Shown here: in pieces, positions 33,356-50,300 of the stretch | How positions within the stretch are numbered: position 1 is the stretch's first letter | Layout of the letters: each line of letters begins with the position of its first letter | Notes under the pieces: model-generated | What the model was told of the DNA's origin: nothing | The model's input: the letters and a program-made list of their open reading frames with translations, nothing else | Databases searched by the model: none | Source: Rhodocyclales bacterium | GTDB taxonomy: Bacteria; Pseudomonadota; Gammaproteobacteria; Burkholderiales; Rhodocyclaceae | Direction of reading: 5' to 3' | DNA length: 64,000 nucleotides | NCBI GenBank assembly: GCA_016235745.1 | Contig: JACRJA010000062.1 | Span: 62,001 to 126,000 of the forward strand | Position numbers and translations under genes: made by a program

Positions 33356-34561
33356 ATGATCCGTTTCGGCCTCGACCGCCTTCTTGCAGAACCCGAACTG
33401 CGCCGCCCCCTCGCCGGTCGGCGCGTGGCGCTGCTGGCGCACCCGGCTTCCGTCACGCGCGACCTGGTGCACGCCGCCGACGCCCTCGCGGCCCTGCCAG
33501 AGGTGCGGCTCACCGCGCTTTTCGGCCCGCAGCACGGCGCGCGCGGCGACAAGCAGGACAACATGGTCGAGTCGCCCGACGAATTCGACGCCCGCCTGGG
33601 CATTCCCGTCTTCAGCCTCTACGGCGCGGTGCGCCGCCCCACCCCGGCGATGATGGACCCCTTCGACGTGCTGCTGGTCGACCTGCAGGATCTCGGCTGC
33701 CGCGTCTACACCTACCTCACCACCCTGCGCTACGTACTGGAAGCGGCTGCCGCGCACGGCAAGAGCGTGTGGGTGCTCGAGCGGCCCAATCCGCTCGGGC
33801 GCGGCATCGAGGGAGGGCTGCTGCAGCCGGGCTGGGAGAGCTTCGTCGGCGCCGGGAGCCTTCCCATGCGCCACGGCCTGACCCTGGGCGAAGCCGGGCG
33901 CTGGTTCATCGCCACCCTGGGGCTCGACGTGGACTATCAGGTGGTATCGCTCGAAGGCTGGGACCCGGAGGCCGCCCCCGGTTACGGCTGGCCGCTGGGC
34001 AAGCGCACCTGGATCAACCCCAGCCCCAATGCCCCCACCCCGTGGATGGCGCGCTGCTATCCCGGTACCGTGCTCGTCGAAGGCACCACCCTCTCCGAGG
34101 GGCGCGGCACCACCCGGCCCTTGGAAGGCTTCGGCGCCCCGGACCTCGACCCCTGGCGGCTGCTCGCCGAAATGGAGATGCTCGCCCCGCACTGGCTGAA
34201 GGGCTGCCGCCTGCGCCCCTGGTTCTTCGAGCCGACATTTCACAAGCATGCGGGCAAGCGCTGCGGCGGGCTCATGATCCACGTAGAAGACCCGGCGCAC
34301 TACGACCCCCGGCGCTTTCGCCCCTGGCGCCTGGTGGCGCTGGCGCTCAAGGCGCTGCACCGGCTCGACCCCGAGCGGCCGCTGTGGCACACCAACCCCT
34401 ACGAGTACGAATACGATCGCCTGGCGATCGATCTCATCGACGGCGGCCCGCGCCTGCGGCAGTGGGTCGAGGACGAGGCGGCCGCGCCGGCCGATCTCGA
34501 CGCGATGATCGAGCCGGAAGAGCGCGCCTGGGCCGAGATCCGCGCCCCCTTCCTCCGCTGA
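33356..34561 (+). CDS. DUF1343/NamZ-type exo-beta-N-acetylmuramidase
   Basis: The 401-residue protein belongs to the DUF1343 (YbbC/NamZ) family, characterised in other bacteria as exo-acting N-acetylmuramidases of peptidoglycan recycling. Family motifs visible are FGPQHGARGDKQDNM (about 61-75), VLLVDLQDLGCRVYTYLTTL (about 105-124), VLERPNPLG and EGTTLSEGRGTTRPLEGFGAP (about 242-262). No N-terminal signal peptide is apparent, so as written it would be cytoplasmic, unlike secreted homologues. It stands upstream of the c-di-GMP signalling genes on the same strand, separated by 73 bp with a -10-like site. Confidence 0.85.
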   Translation: MIRFGLDRLLAEPELRRPLAGRRVALLAHPASVTRDLVHAADALAALPEVRLTALFGPQHGARGDKQDNMVESPDEFDARLGIPVFSLYGAVRRPTPAMMDPFDVLLVDLQDLGCRVYTYLTTLRYVLEAAAAHGKSVWVLERPNPLGRGIEGGLLQPGWESFVGAGSLPMRHGLTLGEAGRWFIATLGLDVDYQVVSLEGWDPEAAPGYGWPLGKRTWINPSPNAPTPWMARCYPGTVLVEGTTLSEGRGTTRPLEGFGAPDLDPWRLLAEMEMLAPHWLKGCRLRPWFFEPTFHKHAGKRCGGLMIHVEDPAHYDPRRFRPWRLVALALKALHRLDPERPLWHTNPYEYEYDRLAIDLIDGGPRLRQWVEDEAAAPADLDAMIEPEERAWAEIRAPFLR

Positions 34562-34584
34562 CGCCATCCACCCTATGCTTCCCC

Positions 34585-34590
34585 TATAAT
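34585..34590 (+). promoter_or_regulatory. TATAAT -10 element before the PhnD-PAS-GGDEF gene
   Basis: A perfect TATAAT occurs 45 bp upstream of the start codon at 34635, in the gap after the NamZ-type gene. No good -35 hexamer is present at 16-18 bp spacing, so an activator or an alternative factor may be needed. It suggests the signalling genes are transcribed separately from the upstream gene. Confidence 0.35.
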
Positions 34591-34634
34591 GAGGGTAACG
34601 GTGCATTCCGCGCCCAGGCGAGCGGCTCATTCGC

Positions 34635-36695
34635 ATGTACTTTCTTCTCCCGATCCTTCGCCGTGCCGCCCGTACCGCGCCGCGGTATGGCCGCCCCCAA
34701 GGGAGCGCGAACGCCGCGCCTCCAACCGCGCGACGCCTGCTCGCCTTTCTCGCGCTCTTGCTTGCCGTCGTCGCTTCGGCGCGCGCGGAGTATCACTTGG
34801 GGGTCTTTTCCCACCGCCCCGGCGAGATCCTCCAGCGTCAATGGCAGCCGCTCGCCGATGAGCTCTCGCAGGCGCTCGCCGAACCCGTCATTCTCGAAGT
34901 CCTCACGCCCGAGGCGCTCGATCGCGAGATCGCCGCCCGCCGCATCGACTTCCTCTTCACCAATCCCGTTCACTACATCCAGGAAAAACACCGCCACGCC
35001 TTCTCCGGCCCCATCGCCACGCTCATCACGCTCGAGCACGGCGTCAAAACCTCGGCCATGGGCGGAGTGATCCTGGTGCGCCGCGACGGTCCCGTCCAGC
35101 GCCCGGAAGATCTCAAAGGCAAACGCGTCCTGATTGCTGGAGGCAAAGGGCTTGGAGGCTATCTCGCCCAGGCCGCCTGGCTGCTCGAGCGCGGAGTGCG
35201 CGTGCCCGAAGACGTCACCCTCCTTCCCCAAGGCAATCACGACGCCGTGGTCCAGGCCCTGCTCGAAGGCAAGGGCGAGGCCGGGTTCGTGCGCACGGGG
35301 CTGCTCGAAGCGCTCGCGCGCGAGGGGCGGCTCACGCCGGCAGACGAAGCGCGCCTCCTGGTGCTCGGCCAATGGCACCCTCCCGGTTTTCCGTACAAGG
35401 TCACCACCACTCTCTACCCCGAATGGGCCTTCGTCGCCCTGCCCCATGTCTCGCCCGAGACCACCCGCAAGGTTGCGCTCGCCCTCTACTACCTCACCGA
35501 CCGTCTCGAAGCCATACCCGACCCCCGGTTCACTGCCGCAGGCATCGGCGGCTTCACCGTACCGGCCGACTACTCCGGCGTGGAGCGCCTCGCCCAGCGG
35601 CTACGCGTGCCGCCGTTCGAGCACGTGGAAGTGCAGTTGCGCGACGTGCTGCACCAGTACGCCCTGCCCTTGCTGCTGCTCGCCTTCGCGGGCGTTCTGC
35701 TCGCCCTACTCACGCTGCGCCTGTGGCACACCCGGCGCCAGCTCGAGCACCAGCGCGCCCGCCTCGCCTCGGCGCTTGCCCAGACCCAGACCATCCTCGA
35801 GACCGTGGACGAAGCCATCTACGGCACCGACGCGCAGGGCCGCTGCATCTTCTTCAACCGCGCCGCCTCCGAGCTCCTTGGCTTTTCCCCCGAGGAGGTG
35901 CTCGGTAAAGATCCGCACGAACTCTTCCACGCGCGGCGACCGGACGGGCAGCCCTATCCGCCTGAGCACTGCCCCTTGCACCGCGCGCTCGAAGCCGGGC
36001 AAAAGGTGAGCCAGGACGACGTCTTCTGGCGGCGCGACGCTCTGCCGGTACCGGTGCACGTCTCCGCCAGCCCCCGCCTCGAGAACGGGCGCGTGATGGG
36101 CGCCGTCGTCGCCTTCCACGACATCACCGAGGAAGTGCGCCTGCTCGAAGAACTGCGCCGGCTCGCGGCCTACGATCCGCTCACGGGCCTGGCCAACCGC
36201 GGCCACCTCGAGCAGCGCCTGCAAGAAGCCCAATCGGCAGTGCAGCGCAGCAAACGGCCGGCGGCGCTTCTCATGTTCGATCTGGACTACTTCAAGAAAG
36301 TCAACGACACCTACGGGCACGCCGTGGGCGATCGCATGCTGCAGGCCTTCGCCCGCGTGCTGCGCCACAACCTGCGCCCCACCGACTTCATCGCCCGCTA
36401 TGGCGGCGAAGAATTCATCGCCATCCTGCCGGATACCTCCCTCGACACGGCGGTCAAGGTGGCCGAACGGGTGCGGCAGTCCTGGGCCCACACCCAGCTG
36501 TCGCTCGACGATCCAGGAAAGGTCCTCAGCGGCACGGTGTCGATCGGCGTCGCCCCCCTCGACCCCGACGCTCCCCTGGACGAGAGCCTGGCGCGGGTCG
36601 ACGAGGCTATGTACCGCGCCAAGCGCGAAGGCAGAAACCAAGTTGCCCTGCCGCCGGCGGGAAGCAAACGGCTCGAAGACGGAGCCTGCTCATGA
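34635..36695 (+). CDS. Diguanylate cyclase with periplasmic PhnD-like sensor and PAS domain
   Basis: This 686-residue membrane protein is predicted to make c-di-GMP in response to a periplasmic signal. A hydrophobic signal segment (about 35-50) precedes a PhnD-like substrate-binding domain (about 52-305), with LGVFSHRPGEILQRQWQPLADELS and FLFTNPVHYIQEK. A membrane helix (about 341-360) leads to a PAS domain (about 380-500) and a GGDEF domain (about 515-675). The catalytic motif is GGEEF (about 589) with metal-binding FDLDYFKKVND. RPTD, five residues before GGEEF, is an RxxD inhibitory site. It overlaps the next gene by 4 bp. The start is poorly supported by a ribosome-binding site. Confidence 0.87.
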   Translation: MYFLLPILRRAARTAPRYGRPQGSANAAPPTARRLLAFLALLLAVVASARAEYHLGVFSHRPGEILQRQWQPLADELSQALAEPVILEVLTPEALDREIAARRIDFLFTNPVHYIQEKHRHAFSGPIATLITLEHGVKTSAMGGVILVRRDGPVQRPEDLKGKRVLIAGGKGLGGYLAQAAWLLERGVRVPEDVTLLPQGNHDAVVQALLEGKGEAGFVRTGLLEALAREGRLTPADEARLLVLGQWHPPGFPYKVTTTLYPEWAFVALPHVSPETTRKVALALYYLTDRLEAIPDPRFTAAGIGGFTVPADYSGVERLAQRLRVPPFEHVEVQLRDVLHQYALPLLLLAFAGVLLALLTLRLWHTRRQLEHQRARLASALAQTQTILETVDEAIYGTDAQGRCIFFNRAASELLGFSPEEVLGKDPHELFHARRPDGQPYPPEHCPLHRALEAGQKVSQDDVFWRRDALPVPVHVSASPRLENGRVMGAVVAFHDITEEVRLLEELRRLAAYDPLTGLANRGHLEQRLQEAQSAVQRSKRPAALLMFDLDYFKKVNDTYGHAVGDRMLQAFARVLRHNLRPTDFIARYGGEEFIAILPDTSLDTAVKVAERVRQSWAHTQLSLDDPGKVLSGTVSIGVAPLDPDAPLDESLARVDEAMYRAKREGRNQVALPPAGSKRLEDGACS

Positions 36696-37663
36696 GCCCA
36701 GCCTGCGACCTCGCCCGGCGCCGCTGGCTCGCCGCCCTCGCTCTGGGGGCGCTCGCGGCCAGCAGTGTCGCCGGCTGCACCCCCGAACCGCCCTTGCGCC
36801 TTTCCTACCATCTCTGGTCGGGCTATGAGCCGCTGCGCCTCTATGTCGACGCTGCTCCCAACGCAACGGCCGGCCTGCAGCTCGTTGAAGTCGCGGACGC
36901 CGAAGCGCAGCTGCAGCTCTTGCGCCTGCGGCAAGTGGAAGCGGCCCTGATCACGCTCGACGAGGTCCTCCTCGGCCGGGCGCAGGGCCTGGATCTGACG
37001 GTGGTGGGCATCATCGACGTCTCGGCCGGTGCCGACCACGTCATGGCGCGCGACCGCTGCCGCGATGCCGCCGGCTGGCGTGGCGCCCGCGTCGCCGTCG
37101 AGCGCCGCGGCCCCGGCCGGCTCCTGCTGCAAGCCTGGTGCGAACACCTGGGGCTCGATCCCCAGCAGCTGAAGCTCATCCCCTATTCGCCGCCGCGCCA
37201 GCTCGACACCTGGCTGCAGCGCGAATTCGACCTGGCCGTGACCTACCAACCCTACGTCGAACGCCTGCGCCGCCTGGGAGCCGTCTCCTGCTTCGATTCT
37301 GCCGTGCCGCCACCGATCGTGCTCGACGTCCTGGTCGTGCGCAGCGCCATCCTCGGCACCCACGGGAAGGCGATTGAACGCCTCATGCGCACTCACTTCC
37401 GCGGCCTCGAGTGGATGCACGACTACGCGATCGACGCCCGCTACCGCATTGCCCGCCGCTTCGGCCTGCCGCTCGAAGACGCTTTCACCCCCTTCATCGG
37501 CCTCATCTTCCCCTCGCTCGAAGAGCAAAAAGACTGGCTCGAACGCAAGCTCCCCGAGGTCCTCACCACCCTTTCCGGACTGCTGCAGCGCGCCGGCCTG
37601 CTTCCTGAGGCGGCAGCCCCTTGGGTCCCCGCCTCGACCCGCTTCCTTCCCCCCTCGCCGTGA
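36692..37663 (+). CDS. NMT1/THI5-like solute-binding lipoprotein
   Basis: The 323-residue protein has an RRRW-containing signal and a lipobox (SVAGC, Cys at about 28), so it should be lipid-anchored in the periplasm. The mature part resembles NMT1/TauA-type binding proteins: LRLSYHLWSGYEPLRLYVD, a segment counting LRQVEAALITLDEVLLG, and WRGARVAVERRGPGRLLLQAW. No ABC permease or ATPase is adjacent. Its gene overlaps the cyclase gene by 4 bp and precedes the phosphodiesterase gene by 15 bp. I infer it acts as a ligand-sensing partner of these signalling proteins rather than as a transporter component. The ligand is unknown. Confidence 0.8.
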   Translation: MSPACDLARRRWLAALALGALAASSVAGCTPEPPLRLSYHLWSGYEPLRLYVDAAPNATAGLQLVEVADAEAQLQLLRLRQVEAALITLDEVLLGRAQGLDLTVVGIIDVSAGADHVMARDRCRDAAGWRGARVAVERRGPGRLLLQAWCEHLGLDPQQLKLIPYSPPRQLDTWLQREFDLAVTYQPYVERLRRLGAVSCFDSAVPPPIVLDVLVVRSAILGTHGKAIERLMRTHFRGLEWMHDYAIDARYRIARRFGLPLEDAFTPFIGLIFPSLEEQKDWLERKLPEVLTTLSGLLQRAGLLPEAAAPWVPASTRFLPPSP

Positions 37664-37678
37664 CGTAGGAATCCTGCG

Positions 37679-40141
37679 ATGCCCCCTCCGTTTCGCCCCT
37701 CACTCGCCCTGCGCCTGGCCTTGCTGTTCCTCGTCGTGATCCTCGCCTTGCTGGGTGCCGAAGGCTGGCTCGCCTGGCGCGACGCCCGCGAACGCACGCT
37801 GGCCGCTGCGCAAGAGCACCTGCTGGGGCTCGCCGCCGCCCTCGTGCGCGCCGCCGAGCACCGCTGGGCCGACCGCCCCGACGAAGTGCGCGCCGACATC
37901 GACTTCCAGGCAGCTTCCCCGGGGCATCACGCCACCCTGCTCACCGATGGGCAAGGCCGCATCCTCGCCGCCCACCGGCAGGACTGGGAGGGGCTGAACC
38001 TGCCGGACGTCCTGCCCGATCTCGCATTGCCGCTTCCCCCTCCCCGCCTCGACACCCTGCGCTGGCAGATCCAGGGCGATGCGGTGCGCCTGGCGATTCC
38101 CTGGTCGCCTCCGGAGGACCTGGGCACGGCGCCGGGAGCCAGCCCCGGCTGGTTGATCCTCTCTTACGATTTTCACTCCCTCCTGGCCCAGCGCCTGGCC
38201 GAGCACTACCGTGCCTTCGCCTGGCAGGCCGCCTTGCCGGTGGGGATGATCCTGTTGCTCGGGCTCTACATCCACTATCGCGGCGCCCGCCCGCTCGAAA
38301 CCCTCACCCGCGCCCTGCGAGCGGCTGCCTCACCGGGGGGGTACCGCCCGCCCGAGCTCGGCGGCGCCATCCCCGAAGTTCGCGCCCTGGGCGAAGCGAT
38401 CGCGCAGGCCATGGCCGCACTGGCGCACCAGCAGGAACGCCTGCGCCAGCTCGACGTCGCCATCGACGCCAGTCCGGCCCAGTTCGTCATCACCGACACC
38501 CAGCCCAGCATCCTCTACGTCAATCGCGCCTTCACCGAAGTCACCGGCTACCCCCCCGGCGAAGTGCTGGGCAAGAACCCGCGCATCCTCCAATCCGGCA
38601 AGACCCCGCGCGAGACCTACCTCGACCTGTGGACGCATCTGACCGCCGGCCGGCGCTGGAGCGGCGAATTCATCAACCGGCGCAAGGACGGCAGCGAATA
38701 CGCCGAATTCGCCACCATCGCCCCGGTCTTCGACGAAGCGGGGCAGATCACCCACTACATCGCCATCAAGTTCGACCTCAGCGAACAGCGCCGCATCACC
38801 GAACGCCTCTCGCACCTGCTCACCCACGACCCCCTCACAGGCCTGGCCAATCGCCCCCTGCTGCTCGAGCGCATCGACCTACGGCTCGCGCAAGGCAAGA
38901 GCGCCGGACAAAACTTCGCTCTCGTTCTGTTCGACCTCGACGGTTTCAGTGACATCAACCAACGCTACGGCACCCGCGCCGGCGACGAGCTCATCAAGGA
39001 GATCGGCCGCGCACTGGAGCACACGCTCACCGCCAGCGACACGATCGCCCGGATCGAAGCCGACGAATTCGCCGTACTCACCGACGCTCAACCCAGCGCG
39101 GCCGAAGCCGGAAACTTCGGCTGGAAGCTCGCCCGCACTATTTCCCATCTCATCGAACAGGAAGTCCGGGCGCGTTTTGCCGAGGGTCACCCCATAGAAC
39201 GGCTCAGCGTGGCTGCCGGCATCGTCGCTTTCCCCGACGATTTCGCGGACGCCGAGGAAATTCTCGCCGCGGCGGCCCTGGCCTTGCAGCAGGCCCGCAT
39301 CAGCCGCCAGCCCGGAGCCGTGCGCGTCTACGAGAGCCTCAGCGCCGATCTGCTGGCGCGGCGCAGCGCCATCGAAGAGGGGCTACGCGAAGCGCTCGCC
39401 GGCCAAGGCAGACATGTCTTGGAACTGCATTACCAGGGACAGTTCGATCGGCAGCATCGCCTGCGCGGGGCCGAGGCGCTGCTGCGCTTCACCCACGCCA
39501 CGCTGGGCCGCATCTCCCCACTGGAATGCATTGCCGTGGCCGAACGCAGCGAGCTCATCTTTCTGCTCGGCTCGTGGATCCTGGGCACGGCGCTCACCGA
39601 CGCCATGGCTTGGCGGCGCGCCAGCGGCTGGGACGGAACGCTGTCGGTCAACATCTCCCCCTTTGGCCTACGCGACCCCCATTTCGCCGAACGCGTGCTC
39701 GAACTCCTGCAGGCAAGCGGTCATCCGGCCGAGCGCCTCCTGTTCGAAGTCACCGAAAGCAGCATGTTCGAGCACCTGGAAGAGACCAAGCGCATCATGC
39801 GCCGCCTCGCCGTCGCCGGCATCCGCTGGTCGCTCGACGACTTCGGCACGAGCTTCTGCGGCCTGCACTATCTCGACCATCTGCCCGTGGCCGAGATCAA
39901 GATCGACCCCTCGTTCGTGCAGCGCGCCCCGAGCGAAGCCCGCGCGCGGCATCTCATCAATGCCATGGTCGAGGCTGCCACCGCCTTTTCCTGCCGCGTG
40001 GTCGCCGAAGGCGTGGAAAACGAAGCCCAGGAGCGGACGCTCGCCGCCTGGCCCGAGCTCCTGCTGCAGGGCTGGCATCTGGCCCGCCCCGAGCCGGCCG
40101 GAGCCTTTGCCCTGCGCCTAGGCGCCAGGACTCAGGGATAG
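37679..40141 (+). CDS. PAS/degenerate GGDEF/EAL c-di-GMP phosphodiesterase
   Basis: An 820-residue inner-membrane protein. A periplasmic sensor region (about 35-180) lies between helices at about 10-32 and 183-200, followed by a PAS domain (about 257-370), GGDEF (about 378-535) and EAL (about 570-810). In the GGDEF domain the signature is IEADEF and the inhibitory-site Arg is absent, so cyclase activity is not expected. In the EAL domain the key residues are present: EALLRF, LSVNISP, FEVTES, LDDFGTSF, AEIKID, VAEGVE and LLQGW. It should hydrolyse c-di-GMP. Its 3' end overlaps the convergent cysteine-rich gene by 10 bp. Confidence 0.88.
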   Translation: MPPPFRPSLALRLALLFLVVILALLGAEGWLAWRDARERTLAAAQEHLLGLAAALVRAAEHRWADRPDEVRADIDFQAASPGHHATLLTDGQGRILAAHRQDWEGLNLPDVLPDLALPLPPPRLDTLRWQIQGDAVRLAIPWSPPEDLGTAPGASPGWLILSYDFHSLLAQRLAEHYRAFAWQAALPVGMILLLGLYIHYRGARPLETLTRALRAAASPGGYRPPELGGAIPEVRALGEAIAQAMAALAHQQERLRQLDVAIDASPAQFVITDTQPSILYVNRAFTEVTGYPPGEVLGKNPRILQSGKTPRETYLDLWTHLTAGRRWSGEFINRRKDGSEYAEFATIAPVFDEAGQITHYIAIKFDLSEQRRITERLSHLLTHDPLTGLANRPLLLERIDLRLAQGKSAGQNFALVLFDLDGFSDINQRYGTRAGDELIKEIGRALEHTLTASDTIARIEADEFAVLTDAQPSAAEAGNFGWKLARTISHLIEQEVRARFAEGHPIERLSVAAGIVAFPDDFADAEEILAAAALALQQARISRQPGAVRVYESLSADLLARRSAIEEGLREALAGQGRHVLELHYQGQFDRQHRLRGAEALLRFTHATLGRISPLECIAVAERSELIFLLGSWILGTALTDAMAWRRASGWDGTLSVNISPFGLRDPHFAERVLELLQASGHPAERLLFEVTESSMFEHLEETKRIMRRLAVAGIRWSLDDFGTSFCGLHYLDHLPVAEIKIDPSFVQRAPSEARARHLINAMVEAATAFSCRVVAEGVENEAQERTLAAWPELLLQGWHLARPEPAGAFALRLGARTQG

Positions 40142-40797
40142 CGTCGGTTGCAGATATCGATACAGATGAGATAAACCTGCATGCAGTCCACCGTGGTCTC
40201 GCCCACCCGGCCGCCGGTGGCGCGGCAATCGACCATCTGCTCGCCGCACACTTCCACGCAGCGGCTCCAGTCGCGCTTCGTCCCTTCCGCGTTCCTGGCG
40301 AGCGACTCCACGATGCGCTGATAGCAGGCCGCCACCTCCACCCGGCGCGGCCCCTCGGCCACGTAGCGCCAGTCGCGGCGGCGCAGGCCGTTGAGCGCCG
40401 TCTCGATGAGGCCGATGTCGTCGGCCCGCACCCGGCCGTTGCGCACCAGCCATTCCACCGCCTGGCAATCGAGCGAACGATCCTGCGCCACCGTCTGCGG
40501 CGCCGGCGGCAGGTAGCCCGCCTGGATGCGGACGCATGCGTGGGCGAAGAGAAAGCGCCGGGCGACCGGCCACAGATCGGGCAGCAGCGTGGGATTGTGC
40601 ACGATCACCGGCACCCCCTCGACGAGGCGCACCTCGAAAACCCGCCGGGCCTTGGGATCTTCGCGTACCGCCACGGCCTGCCCCTTGGCATCGGTGCACC
40701 CCGTATATTCCGGTGATTCCTGTGCCTTGGCCCCCTGCCCCGCCAGCGCCACCCACAGGAACACCGCTGCCACCGCCCCGCGCCACGTCACTCGCAT
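40132..40797 (-). CDS. Exported cysteine-rich protein of unknown function
   Basis: I do not recognise this 221-residue protein. A signal peptide ends GAKAQ at about residue 26. The mature part has about eleven cysteines, clustered at the C-terminus as CVEVCGEQMVDC and DCMQVYLICIDICNRRYP, which suggests several disulfides or metal binding. An early GCTDAKGQAVAV resembles the start of the DUF4124-like protein at 22181-22732. It is predicted periplasmic. The gene converges with the phosphodiesterase gene (10 bp overlap) and is divergent from tetR with 111 bp between starts. Confidence 0.68.
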   Translation of the reverse strand: MRVTWRGAVAAVFLWVALAGQGAKAQESPEYTGCTDAKGQAVAVREDPKARRVFEVRLVEGVPVIVHNPTLLPDLWPVARRFLFAHACVRIQAGYLPPAPQTVAQDRSLDCQAVEWLVRNGRVRADDIGLIETALNGLRRRDWRYVAEGPRRVEVAACYQRIVESLARNAEGTKRDWSRCVEVCGEQMVDCRATGGRVGETTVDCMQVYLICIDICNRRYP

Positions 40798-47372: not shown

Positions 47373-50300
47373 ATGACCAACCGCCGCCTGAAAGTATTCC
47401 TGTACGCGCTTTGTTCGCGGCTGCGCTGCTGCATCGTCCCATTCTTGATGCTGCCGGCACTGTTCGTCCCGCTATACCCGGTATGGGCCCAGCAACTTCC
47501 CGAAGCGCTACGGCAGCATTCCTTGCCAGCGCTGCTCGTCGCGCCCGACGGCGGGCGCATCGTCGATGCCAACGAGGCGGCGATCGCCTTCTACGGCTAT
47601 CCTCCCGAGCGGTTGCGCGGCGGCATGACCATCGTCGAGATCAACCAACTCACGGCCGACGAAGTGCAGCGCGAGATGGACGAAGCGCGCCGTCAGCGGC
47701 GCAATTTCTTCGTCTTCCCCCATCGCCTCGCCTCCGGCGAGATCGTCGCCACCGAGGTCTATTCGAGCCCGGTACGGATCGACGGGCGCACCTACCTGCT
47801 CTCGCTCGTGCTGCCTGAAACCCGCGCCACCCTGTTGCAGACCGAACTGCAACGCTACCAGAACCGGCTGGAGGAACTCGTCGCCGTGCGCACCGAGGCG
47901 CTGCAGCGCACCGAGGCGGCGCGCCGCGAGCTGCTCGGTTGGGCCGTGATCGGCCTGGGGCTGCTGCTCGCGCTGCTCGCCGCGGCCTATCTGCGGCTGC
48001 GGCGCGCCCAGCATCAGACACGTCATCTGGCCGAGGAGCTCGAACTCACCCTCGAAGGAGCGGGGCTCGGCCGCATCCTGTGGGACGTCGAACGGCGCGT
48101 CGCCACCTTCTGCCCCCGGATCCAGCGCATTCTCGGGCTACCCGGAGAGCGTCCGATCGACGTGCCGCTCGAGCAGTGGGTGGCGATGATCCACCCCGAG
48201 GAGCGGGAACGGGTGCATCAGGTGGTCGTCGAACACCTCAACCACACGCGCCCCAACGTCGACCTGCGCTACCGCATCCGCCACGCCGACGGCAGCTGGC
48301 GCTGGCTCGAGACCTGGGCTCGCGCCGTCGACCGCGAAGGCGGCCGCGTGCGCCGTATCGCCGGACTCGCCCGCGACGTCACCGCAGCCGTGCAGCTGGA
48401 GGAATCTCAGCGCATCGCCGCCAGCGTATTCCACGCGCTGGCCGAGGGTGTGGTGGTCACCGATACCGATCTCGTGATCCTCGAGGTCAACGACGCGCTG
48501 CTGCGCATGACGGGCTTTTCGCGCGAGGAGGTGATCGGAGCGCGCATCGCGCCGTGGCGTTCGCACCGTCACGACCGGTCTTTCTACGAGGCGATGTGGG
48601 AAACCCTGCGCGCCAGGGGCAGCTGGCACGGCGAAGTGTGGAACCAGACCAAGGCGGGGCAGCCGCTGCCGACGCTGCTCACCATCTCGGTGGTCTACGA
48701 CGAACAGCGCCGACCGACCCGCTACGTCGCGGCGATGCAGGACATCACCACGCTCAAGGCGCAGCAGCAGATGCTCGAGCGCCTGGCCTACCACGACGAA
48801 CTCACGGGTCTGCCCAACCGGGTGCTGCTCAACGACCGCTTGGCGCAAGCGCTCGCCGCCGCCCGGCGCCACGGCACCGCGGTAGCGATCGCCTATCTCG
48901 ATCTCGACGGCTTCAAGCCGATCAACGACCGCTGCGGCCATGAGGCCGGCGACGACGTGCTGCGCCTCACCGCCCGGCGCCTGCAAGGGACGCTGCGCGA
49001 GACCGACACGCTTGCGCGCATCGGCGGCGACGAGTTCGTTGCCGTGATCACCGACCTCGCCTCGCCCGAGGACTGGCAAGCGATCGTGGAGCGCATGCTC
49101 TCCGTCACCCGCACGCCGATCAAGTACGGCGACGAGCTGCTGCAGCTCACCACCAGCATCGGCGTCACCGTCTACCCCGAGGACGACGCCGACCCCGAGG
49201 TGCTGCTGCGCCACGCCGATCTCGCCCTCTATCAGGCGAAGCAGGCGGGCAAGAACCGCTATTGCCGCTTCGACGCCAGGCTCGACCGCGAGCAGCAGGC
49301 GCGCCGCTCCCTGAGCCAGGCGGTGATCGAAGGCATCGAACGGGAAGAACTGCGGCTCTACCTGCAGCCGCGCGTGGAACTGGCAAGCGGACGCATCGAA
49401 GGCGCGGAAGCCCTGGTGCGCTGGCGGCACCCCACGCGAGGGCTGCTCGCCCCCGGCGCCTTCATCCCGGCGATCGAAAACGACGAAGCGATCGTGCGGC
49501 TCGGCAACTGGGTGTTCGAACGGGCGCTGGCCCAGCTCACCGACTGGACGCGCCAGGGGCGCGACTGGCTCGTCTCGGTCAACGTCGCGCCGCGCCAGCT
49601 GCTCGACCCCACCTTTCCCCGTCAGCTCGAAGAGCGGCTCAAGCGCTACCCCGACGCCCCACCGCAACGGCTGGAGTTGGAGATCGTCGAATCGAGCGCG
49701 CTCGATGCCGGCATCGGTCTCGAACAGCTGATGATGCAGTGCCGCACGCTGGGCGTGCGTATGTCGATCGACGATTTCGGCAGCGGCTACTCGTCGCTCG
49801 CCTACCTCAAGCGCGTACCGGCGCACGCGATCAAGATCGACCAGGCCTTCGTCATCCACCTGCTCGACGAGACCGACGACTACCGCATCGTCGAGGCCGT
49901 GCTCGAACTCGCCCGCACCTTCGACCTGCACTGCGTCGCCGAAGGGGTGGAGACGGTGGAACACGGCGAATACCTGCTGCGGCTGGGCGCCGACGTCGCC
50001 CAAGGCTATGGCATCGCACACCCCATGCCGCAGGCCGACTTCACCAACTGGGCGCTGCGCTGGCAGCAACCGCCGCAGTGGGGGCGCTGGCGCGATACCC
50101 TGGCCAACCCCCTGTGCCGGCAGATGGCGCGCTTCGAGCTCACCCACCGCCACTGGTTCGCCCGGCTCGAATACCACCTGCGCGACCCGGCCGCCACCCC
50201 GCCGCCCGAGCTCGATCCGCACCGCTGCGACTTCGGCCGCTGGCTCGACAAAGAAGGGCGCGAATTCCTGGCCCGCCGACCCGGATTCGCCGAGATCGAG

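Follow-up and report, generated by a model that had tools for sequence, protein, structure and literature searches.

A transporter-type binding lipoprotein as a possible shared ligand subunit of a diguanylate cyclase and a c-di-GMP phosphodiesterase in a Rhodocyclales bacterium

Why should a gene for a transporter-type solute-binding lipoprotein lie between the genes of two membrane receptors predicted to make and to break c-di-GMP? In the window (the whole 64-kb stretch of DNA analyzed here), three forward-strand open reading frames at 34635-36695, 36692-37663 and 37679-40141 code for proteins of 686, 323 and 820 aa; the first two genes overlap by 4 bp and the last two are 15 bp apart, such that the open reading frames and Pfam matches bear out the trio as the first-pass annotation had drawn it. 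That annotation had also regarded the lipoprotein as devoid of an ABC partner, and no ABC permease or ATPase gene adjoins the trio in this window. Thus, the locus lacks the permease and ATPase genes that stand beside the binding protein in the SsuA/TauA ABC importers, and has a binding-protein gene directly beside those of GGDEF/EAL membrane receptors. The nearest ABC genes, at about 27.7-31.7 kb, are by sequence of the branched-chain amino-acid type and include a binding protein of their own. The 2.16 Mb host genome encodes seven GGDEF domains, five EAL domains and two clear PhnD domains, the second of which adjoins an ABC ATPase-like frame; another GGDEF-EAL gene lies within the window at 48786-50024 (+).

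Based on Pfam matches and motifs, the first gene specifies a PhnD-PAS-GGDEF diguanylate cyclase. Its periplasmic sensor is a PhnD-type (type II binding protein) domain (residues 56-288; 34800-35498; PF12974 Phosphonate-bd, E 5.8e-37), followed by a transmembrane helix (residues 343-361; 35661-35717; hydropathy 2.61), a PAS domain (35784-36140; PF00989, E 1.5e-17) and a GGDEF catalytic domain (36165-36641; E 3.8e-48). The latter displays a GGEEF signature (residues 590-594), which conforms to the GG(D/E)EF pattern of predicted active cyclases, and an inhibitory RxxD I-site (residues 581-584). The sensor part, and only this part, matches the TtrS model (E 3.9e-33); its 114.8 bits fall short of the at least 750 bits that define this full-length equivalog. 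The start codon is uncertain, as relatives from the genus may begin about 30 codons further in.

The middle gene codes for a TauA/SsuA (NMT1)-like solute-binding lipoprotein (NMT1, E 1.2e-7), and its fold model (pLDDT 94) has TauA and SsuA as the best matches. An arginine-rich signal peptide (RRR...SVAG; 36692-36775) with the lipobox VAGC at its end precedes the lipid-bearing Cys29 (36776-36778), and this cysteine is shared by the full alignment of 32 relatives, which had been picked by visual inspection of their N-termini. In E. coli, the residue after the lipid-bearing cysteine decides the membrane to which a lipoprotein is sorted; as this residue is Thr and not Asp, the lipoprotein might by that rule reside in the outer membrane, away from the inner-membrane receptors. 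NspS, a polyamine-binding protein, belongs to the PotD-like family, from which this NMT1/SsuA/TauA family member is distinct.

The third gene codes for a phosphodiesterase with a Cache-HAMP-like-PAS-GGDEF(degenerate)-EAL architecture by Pfam and motifs; the first-pass annotation had correctly recognized the PAS and EAL domains and overlooked the degenerate GGDEF domain (38822-39298; E 1e-27), which carries EADEF at 39056-39070. The EAL domain (39383-40090; PF00563, E 7.4e-59) retains the EAL, NIS, EVTES, DDFG, KID and AEGVE motifs, and with them the EAL, N, E, DD, K and E residues of a predicted active phosphodiesterase. The region between the transmembrane helices at residues 9-27 and 180-198 (residues ~28-178; 37760-38212) yielded no Pfam match; Foldseek searches with its AlphaFold model (pLDDT 78) recovered WalK, DctB and CitA, and it is predicted to adopt a single-Cache (PDC-like) fold in the periplasm. 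On the opposite strand (40132-40797), a gene that shares the last 10 bp of the phosphodiesterase gene codes for a 221-aa cysteine-containing, apparently exported protein with no Pfam or NCBIfam match.

We propose that the middle gene provides a ligand-binding lipoprotein that has moved from transport into signalling. Loaded with its ligand (or empty), it would dock in the periplasm on two sensor domains, the PhnD-type one in the cyclase and the single-Cache one in the phosphodiesterase. This would alter the receptor dimer, and the signal would run along the transmembrane helix and through the PAS domains to reach the c-di-GMP-making GGDEF domain and the c-di-GMP-breaking EAL domain, so that one external solute would drive two opposed enzymes in opposite directions. 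On balance, such docking of a shared lipoprotein on both receptors, with opposed control of c-di-GMP, is probably the best explanation of the locus. It builds on the gene identities, the active-site motifs, the lipoprotein signature and the widespread transporter-free linkage of the lipoprotein to both receptor types; from these we infer the physical contact, the ligand, the signs of the responses and the use of one lipoprotein by both receptors, along with the presumed ligand binding and push-pull control.

A scan of named genomes with the lipoprotein sequence alone (10 lipoproteins, a subset of the 32-row alignment) produced 80 loci out of at least 368 relatives, mostly proteobacterial, from Dechloromonas, Thauera, Aromatoleum, Halomonas, Marinobacter, Oceanimonas and methanotrophs, as well as from metagenome-assembled genomes (MAGs) labelled Geobacteraceae and Desulfobulbaceae. 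Among the matches listed, a PhnD-domain transmembrane receptor adjoins the lipoprotein in 74 of the 80 loci, and the two genes are separated by no more than 46 bp in all 73 measurable pairs, a 4-bp overlap (ATGA-type) being the commonest spacing. Judged by the domains beside the lipoprotein, the outputs at the PhnD loci listed comprise 24 of the kinase type, 19 GGDEF and 22 GGDEF-EAL, the remaining loci being mixed or unassigned; Pfam searches of selected receptors confirmed both kinases and hybrid kinases. These outputs change many times across the lipoprotein tree, in which the PhnD- and Cache-linked proteins form one group (98% SH-aLRT; 90 rows). By these neighbour counts, the co-occurrence of the lipoprotein with receptors exceeds chance. 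Thus, the earlier suggestion that solute-binding proteins were recruited as sensors holds for the linkage to signalling and probably does not hold for two separate inputs: because the commonest partner of the lipoprotein is a PhnD-domain receptor, the type to which the cyclase belongs, both binding proteins probably contribute to a single sensor. Likewise, c-di-GMP enzymes as outputs fit the domains of the trio, whereas many receptors of the family are histidine kinases instead.

The wider family shows further arrangements. An alphaproteobacterial plasmid carries a lipoprotein relative followed by an EAL gene, and eight more distant relatives (L064, L066, L067, L068, L070, L076, L079 and L080) lie beside histidine kinases in which no PhnD domain was detected; these kinases are a further receptor type for the family. 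Three methylotroph relatives (L117, L133 and L151) have no receptor beside them; at L133 the same-strand upstream gene codes for a TOBE-domain ABC ATPase, and no TauC-type permease was detected nearby.

Within the genus, all four species whose contigs reach far enough (G000, G039, G096 and G101) have the trio intact; in a fifth (G102) the contig stops inside the phosphodiesterase gene. At two distant loci, in Ferriphaselus (L123) and a gammaproteobacterial MAG (L158), the order is lipoprotein, phosphodiesterase, cyclase, with the PhnD receptor one gene away from the lipoprotein behind a GGDEF-EAL gene; among the matches listed, the cyclase of L158 is the closest outside the genus (42%). Confinement to one strain would have told against the original reading, and the trio is not so confined. 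The three-gene co-occurrence that the first-pass annotation asked to be sought does extend beyond the strain, but it is uncommon, and the conserved units are the pairs, namely lipoprotein with PhnD receptor and lipoprotein with Cache receptor.

In the sister genus (L061 and L062), a NamZ-lipoprotein-phosphodiesterase array, with no cyclase gene between its first two members, is syntenic with positions 33356-40141 of the window. The cyclase is therefore separable: it was acquired or deleted whole, next to the lipoprotein-phosphodiesterase pair. We also considered a ligand released by cell-wall turnover through the upstream muramidase NamZ, and set this idea aside: among the loci examined NamZ is conserved only in the genus and its sister genus, so that the link is probably local synteny. 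Across loci, recurrent non-signalling neighbours amounted only to local synteny and apparent antisense-frame artefacts.

The sister-genus locus, with lipoprotein and phosphodiesterase only, would also suit an arrangement in which the lipoprotein is the partner of the Cache-phosphodiesterase alone, the two forming an ancestral pair, and in which the PhnD-cyclase directly detects a ligand of its own in the manner of TtrS. Most of the loci L188-L208 have PhnD receptors without the lipoprotein, and such receptors are many, indicating that the PhnD domain can act alone; moreover, for TtrS a PhnD-like domain is regarded as the sensor and no binding protein is described (PMC5408782). We nevertheless regard this alternative as unlikely, given that a PhnD receptor is by far the commonest neighbour of the lipoprotein in the 74 loci counted above and that the lipoprotein mostly adjoins the closest PhnD relatives of the cyclase.

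Might the lipoprotein, conversely, serve the PhnD-cyclase only, with the phosphodiesterase as a co-transcribed counter-enzyme responding to a Cache ligand of its own? The strength of the lipoprotein-PhnD pair is compatible with this, as is the frequency with which Cache domains bind ligands directly. However, a search of 399 genomes of the host's order for the Cache domain of the phosphodiesterase, excluding the window from the count, yielded 19 loci with near-complete matches (L211-L229), and in 15 of these 19 a lipoprotein gene lies immediately upstream, against none of eight weak partial matches (L230 and L233-L239). This disparity marks the Cache subfamily as a second type of lipoprotein partner, linked to it even where no PhnD receptor is seen alongside (L211-L229; L060-L062), and makes a role confined to the cyclase quite improbable. 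It also lends independent support to the initial, cautiously worded idea that the lipoprotein presents ligand to the periplasmic domain of the phosphodiesterase.

Regular placement of its homologues next to ABC permease and ATPase genes would have spoken against a signalling role, and none of the 80 loci among the matches listed has an adjacent permease. In 101 genomes of the host's bacterial family, relatives scoring at least about 64 bits are nearly always beside a histidine kinase or GGDEF/EAL receptor, and directly adjacent ABC permeases accompany only the most distant matches (<50 bits); the lipobox cysteine is present in the signalling-linked relatives and mostly missing from the transporter-linked ones, which score lowest. 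It is thus highly improbable that an ordinary importer component using ABC parts encoded elsewhere has come to lie here by accident: the modelled TauA/SsuA fold of the lipoprotein and the fact that binding-protein genes can be unlinked from their permease would permit this, but nearly all the relatives adjoin receptors and the lipobox distinguishes them from most transporter-linked ones. As receptors and not ABC permeases adjoin the family, and the Cache domain is tied to it as well, the lipoprotein very probably acts as a subunit in signalling.

Sequence comparisons offered further clues to docking and ligand. Pairwise distances of the lipoprotein and the PhnD domain correlate (r about 0.60-0.62, with the kinship of species ignored) at least as well as those of the PhnD and GGDEF domains within the same protein (r 0.46-0.50, likewise ignoring kinship); nearest-neighbour concordance is not higher for the lipoprotein-PhnD pair than for other domain pairs. 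Since species phylogeny is still in these data, the correlation is only suggestive of coevolution. Where transporter PhnD proteins have an STSG oxyanion loop, the receptor PhnD domains have xLGG, whether paired with a lipoprotein or not, which renders phosphonate or phosphite unlikely as the ligand; a simple phosphonate is probably not the signal, and the replacement gives no clue to one particular compound. At column 202 of the PhnD precursor, the lipoprotein-paired domains have Gly, and the unpaired ones often Cys or Asp.

Returning to docking of one lipoprotein on both receptors, the locus places the lipoprotein between its two usual receptor kinds, whose enzymatic activities are predicted to be opposite. 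We suggest tentatively, and with somewhat less than even confidence, that this lipoprotein is a ligand subunit common to PhnD and Cache receptors in a push-pull arrangement, and that it exemplifies a large proteobacterial family of free binding proteins that dock on receptors with binding domains of their own, the outputs being interchangeably kinase, cyclase or phosphodiesterase. To our knowledge, the input is known for only a minority of c-di-GMP receptors. With at least 368 relatives, hundreds of cyclases, phosphodiesterases and kinases would be tied to one family of ligand-binding subunits, such that a single ligand, once found, could help explain many receptors. If our proposal is true, the trio would offer a compact case from nature in which one signal drives c-di-GMP synthesis and breakdown oppositely, and it looks like a little-described means by which bacteria translate an external chemical into a choice of lifestyle. 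A literature search for PhnD or NMT1 with GGDEF, with most subscription journals outside its reach, found no description of the arrangement, in agreement with the first-pass annotation, to which no described system with this exact trio was known. Within that reach, three features appear to be undescribed: the signalling role of this lipoprotein family, its pairing with a binding-domain receptor and its place between opposed enzymes.

Receptor activation by binding proteins is itself recognized as widespread (PMC9602780). The lipoprotein shares its predicted fold with TauA and SsuA, from which it differs in its low identity (~17%), its lipoprotein anchor and its want of an ABC partner. In AioX-AioS and ArrX-ArrS, a transport-type binding protein has similarly been recruited as the first component of kinase signalling (PMC5908839); those systems keep their PhnD-like protein free in the periplasm and signal through a histidine kinase, whereas the trio has its PhnD-like domain built into the receptor and an SsuA/TauA-type protein as its free subunit. 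Like the cyclase, TtrS and ThsS have a PhnD-like domain fused to a membrane receptor; their output is a kinase and no partner lipoprotein is described there (PMC5408782), in contrast to the cyclase and lipoprotein of the trio. In the NspS-MbaA system of Vibrio cholerae, a solute-binding protein docks in a ligand-dependent manner on a GGDEF-EAL receptor and sets c-di-GMP (PMC8967002). The trio resembles it in coupling a solute-binding protein to c-di-GMP receptors, with docking proposed. However, whereas NspS-MbaA combines a member of the polyamine-binding family with one bifunctional receptor, the trio combines a TauA/SsuA-like lipoprotein with two receptors of opposite predicted activities, one of which carries a binding-protein domain of its own.
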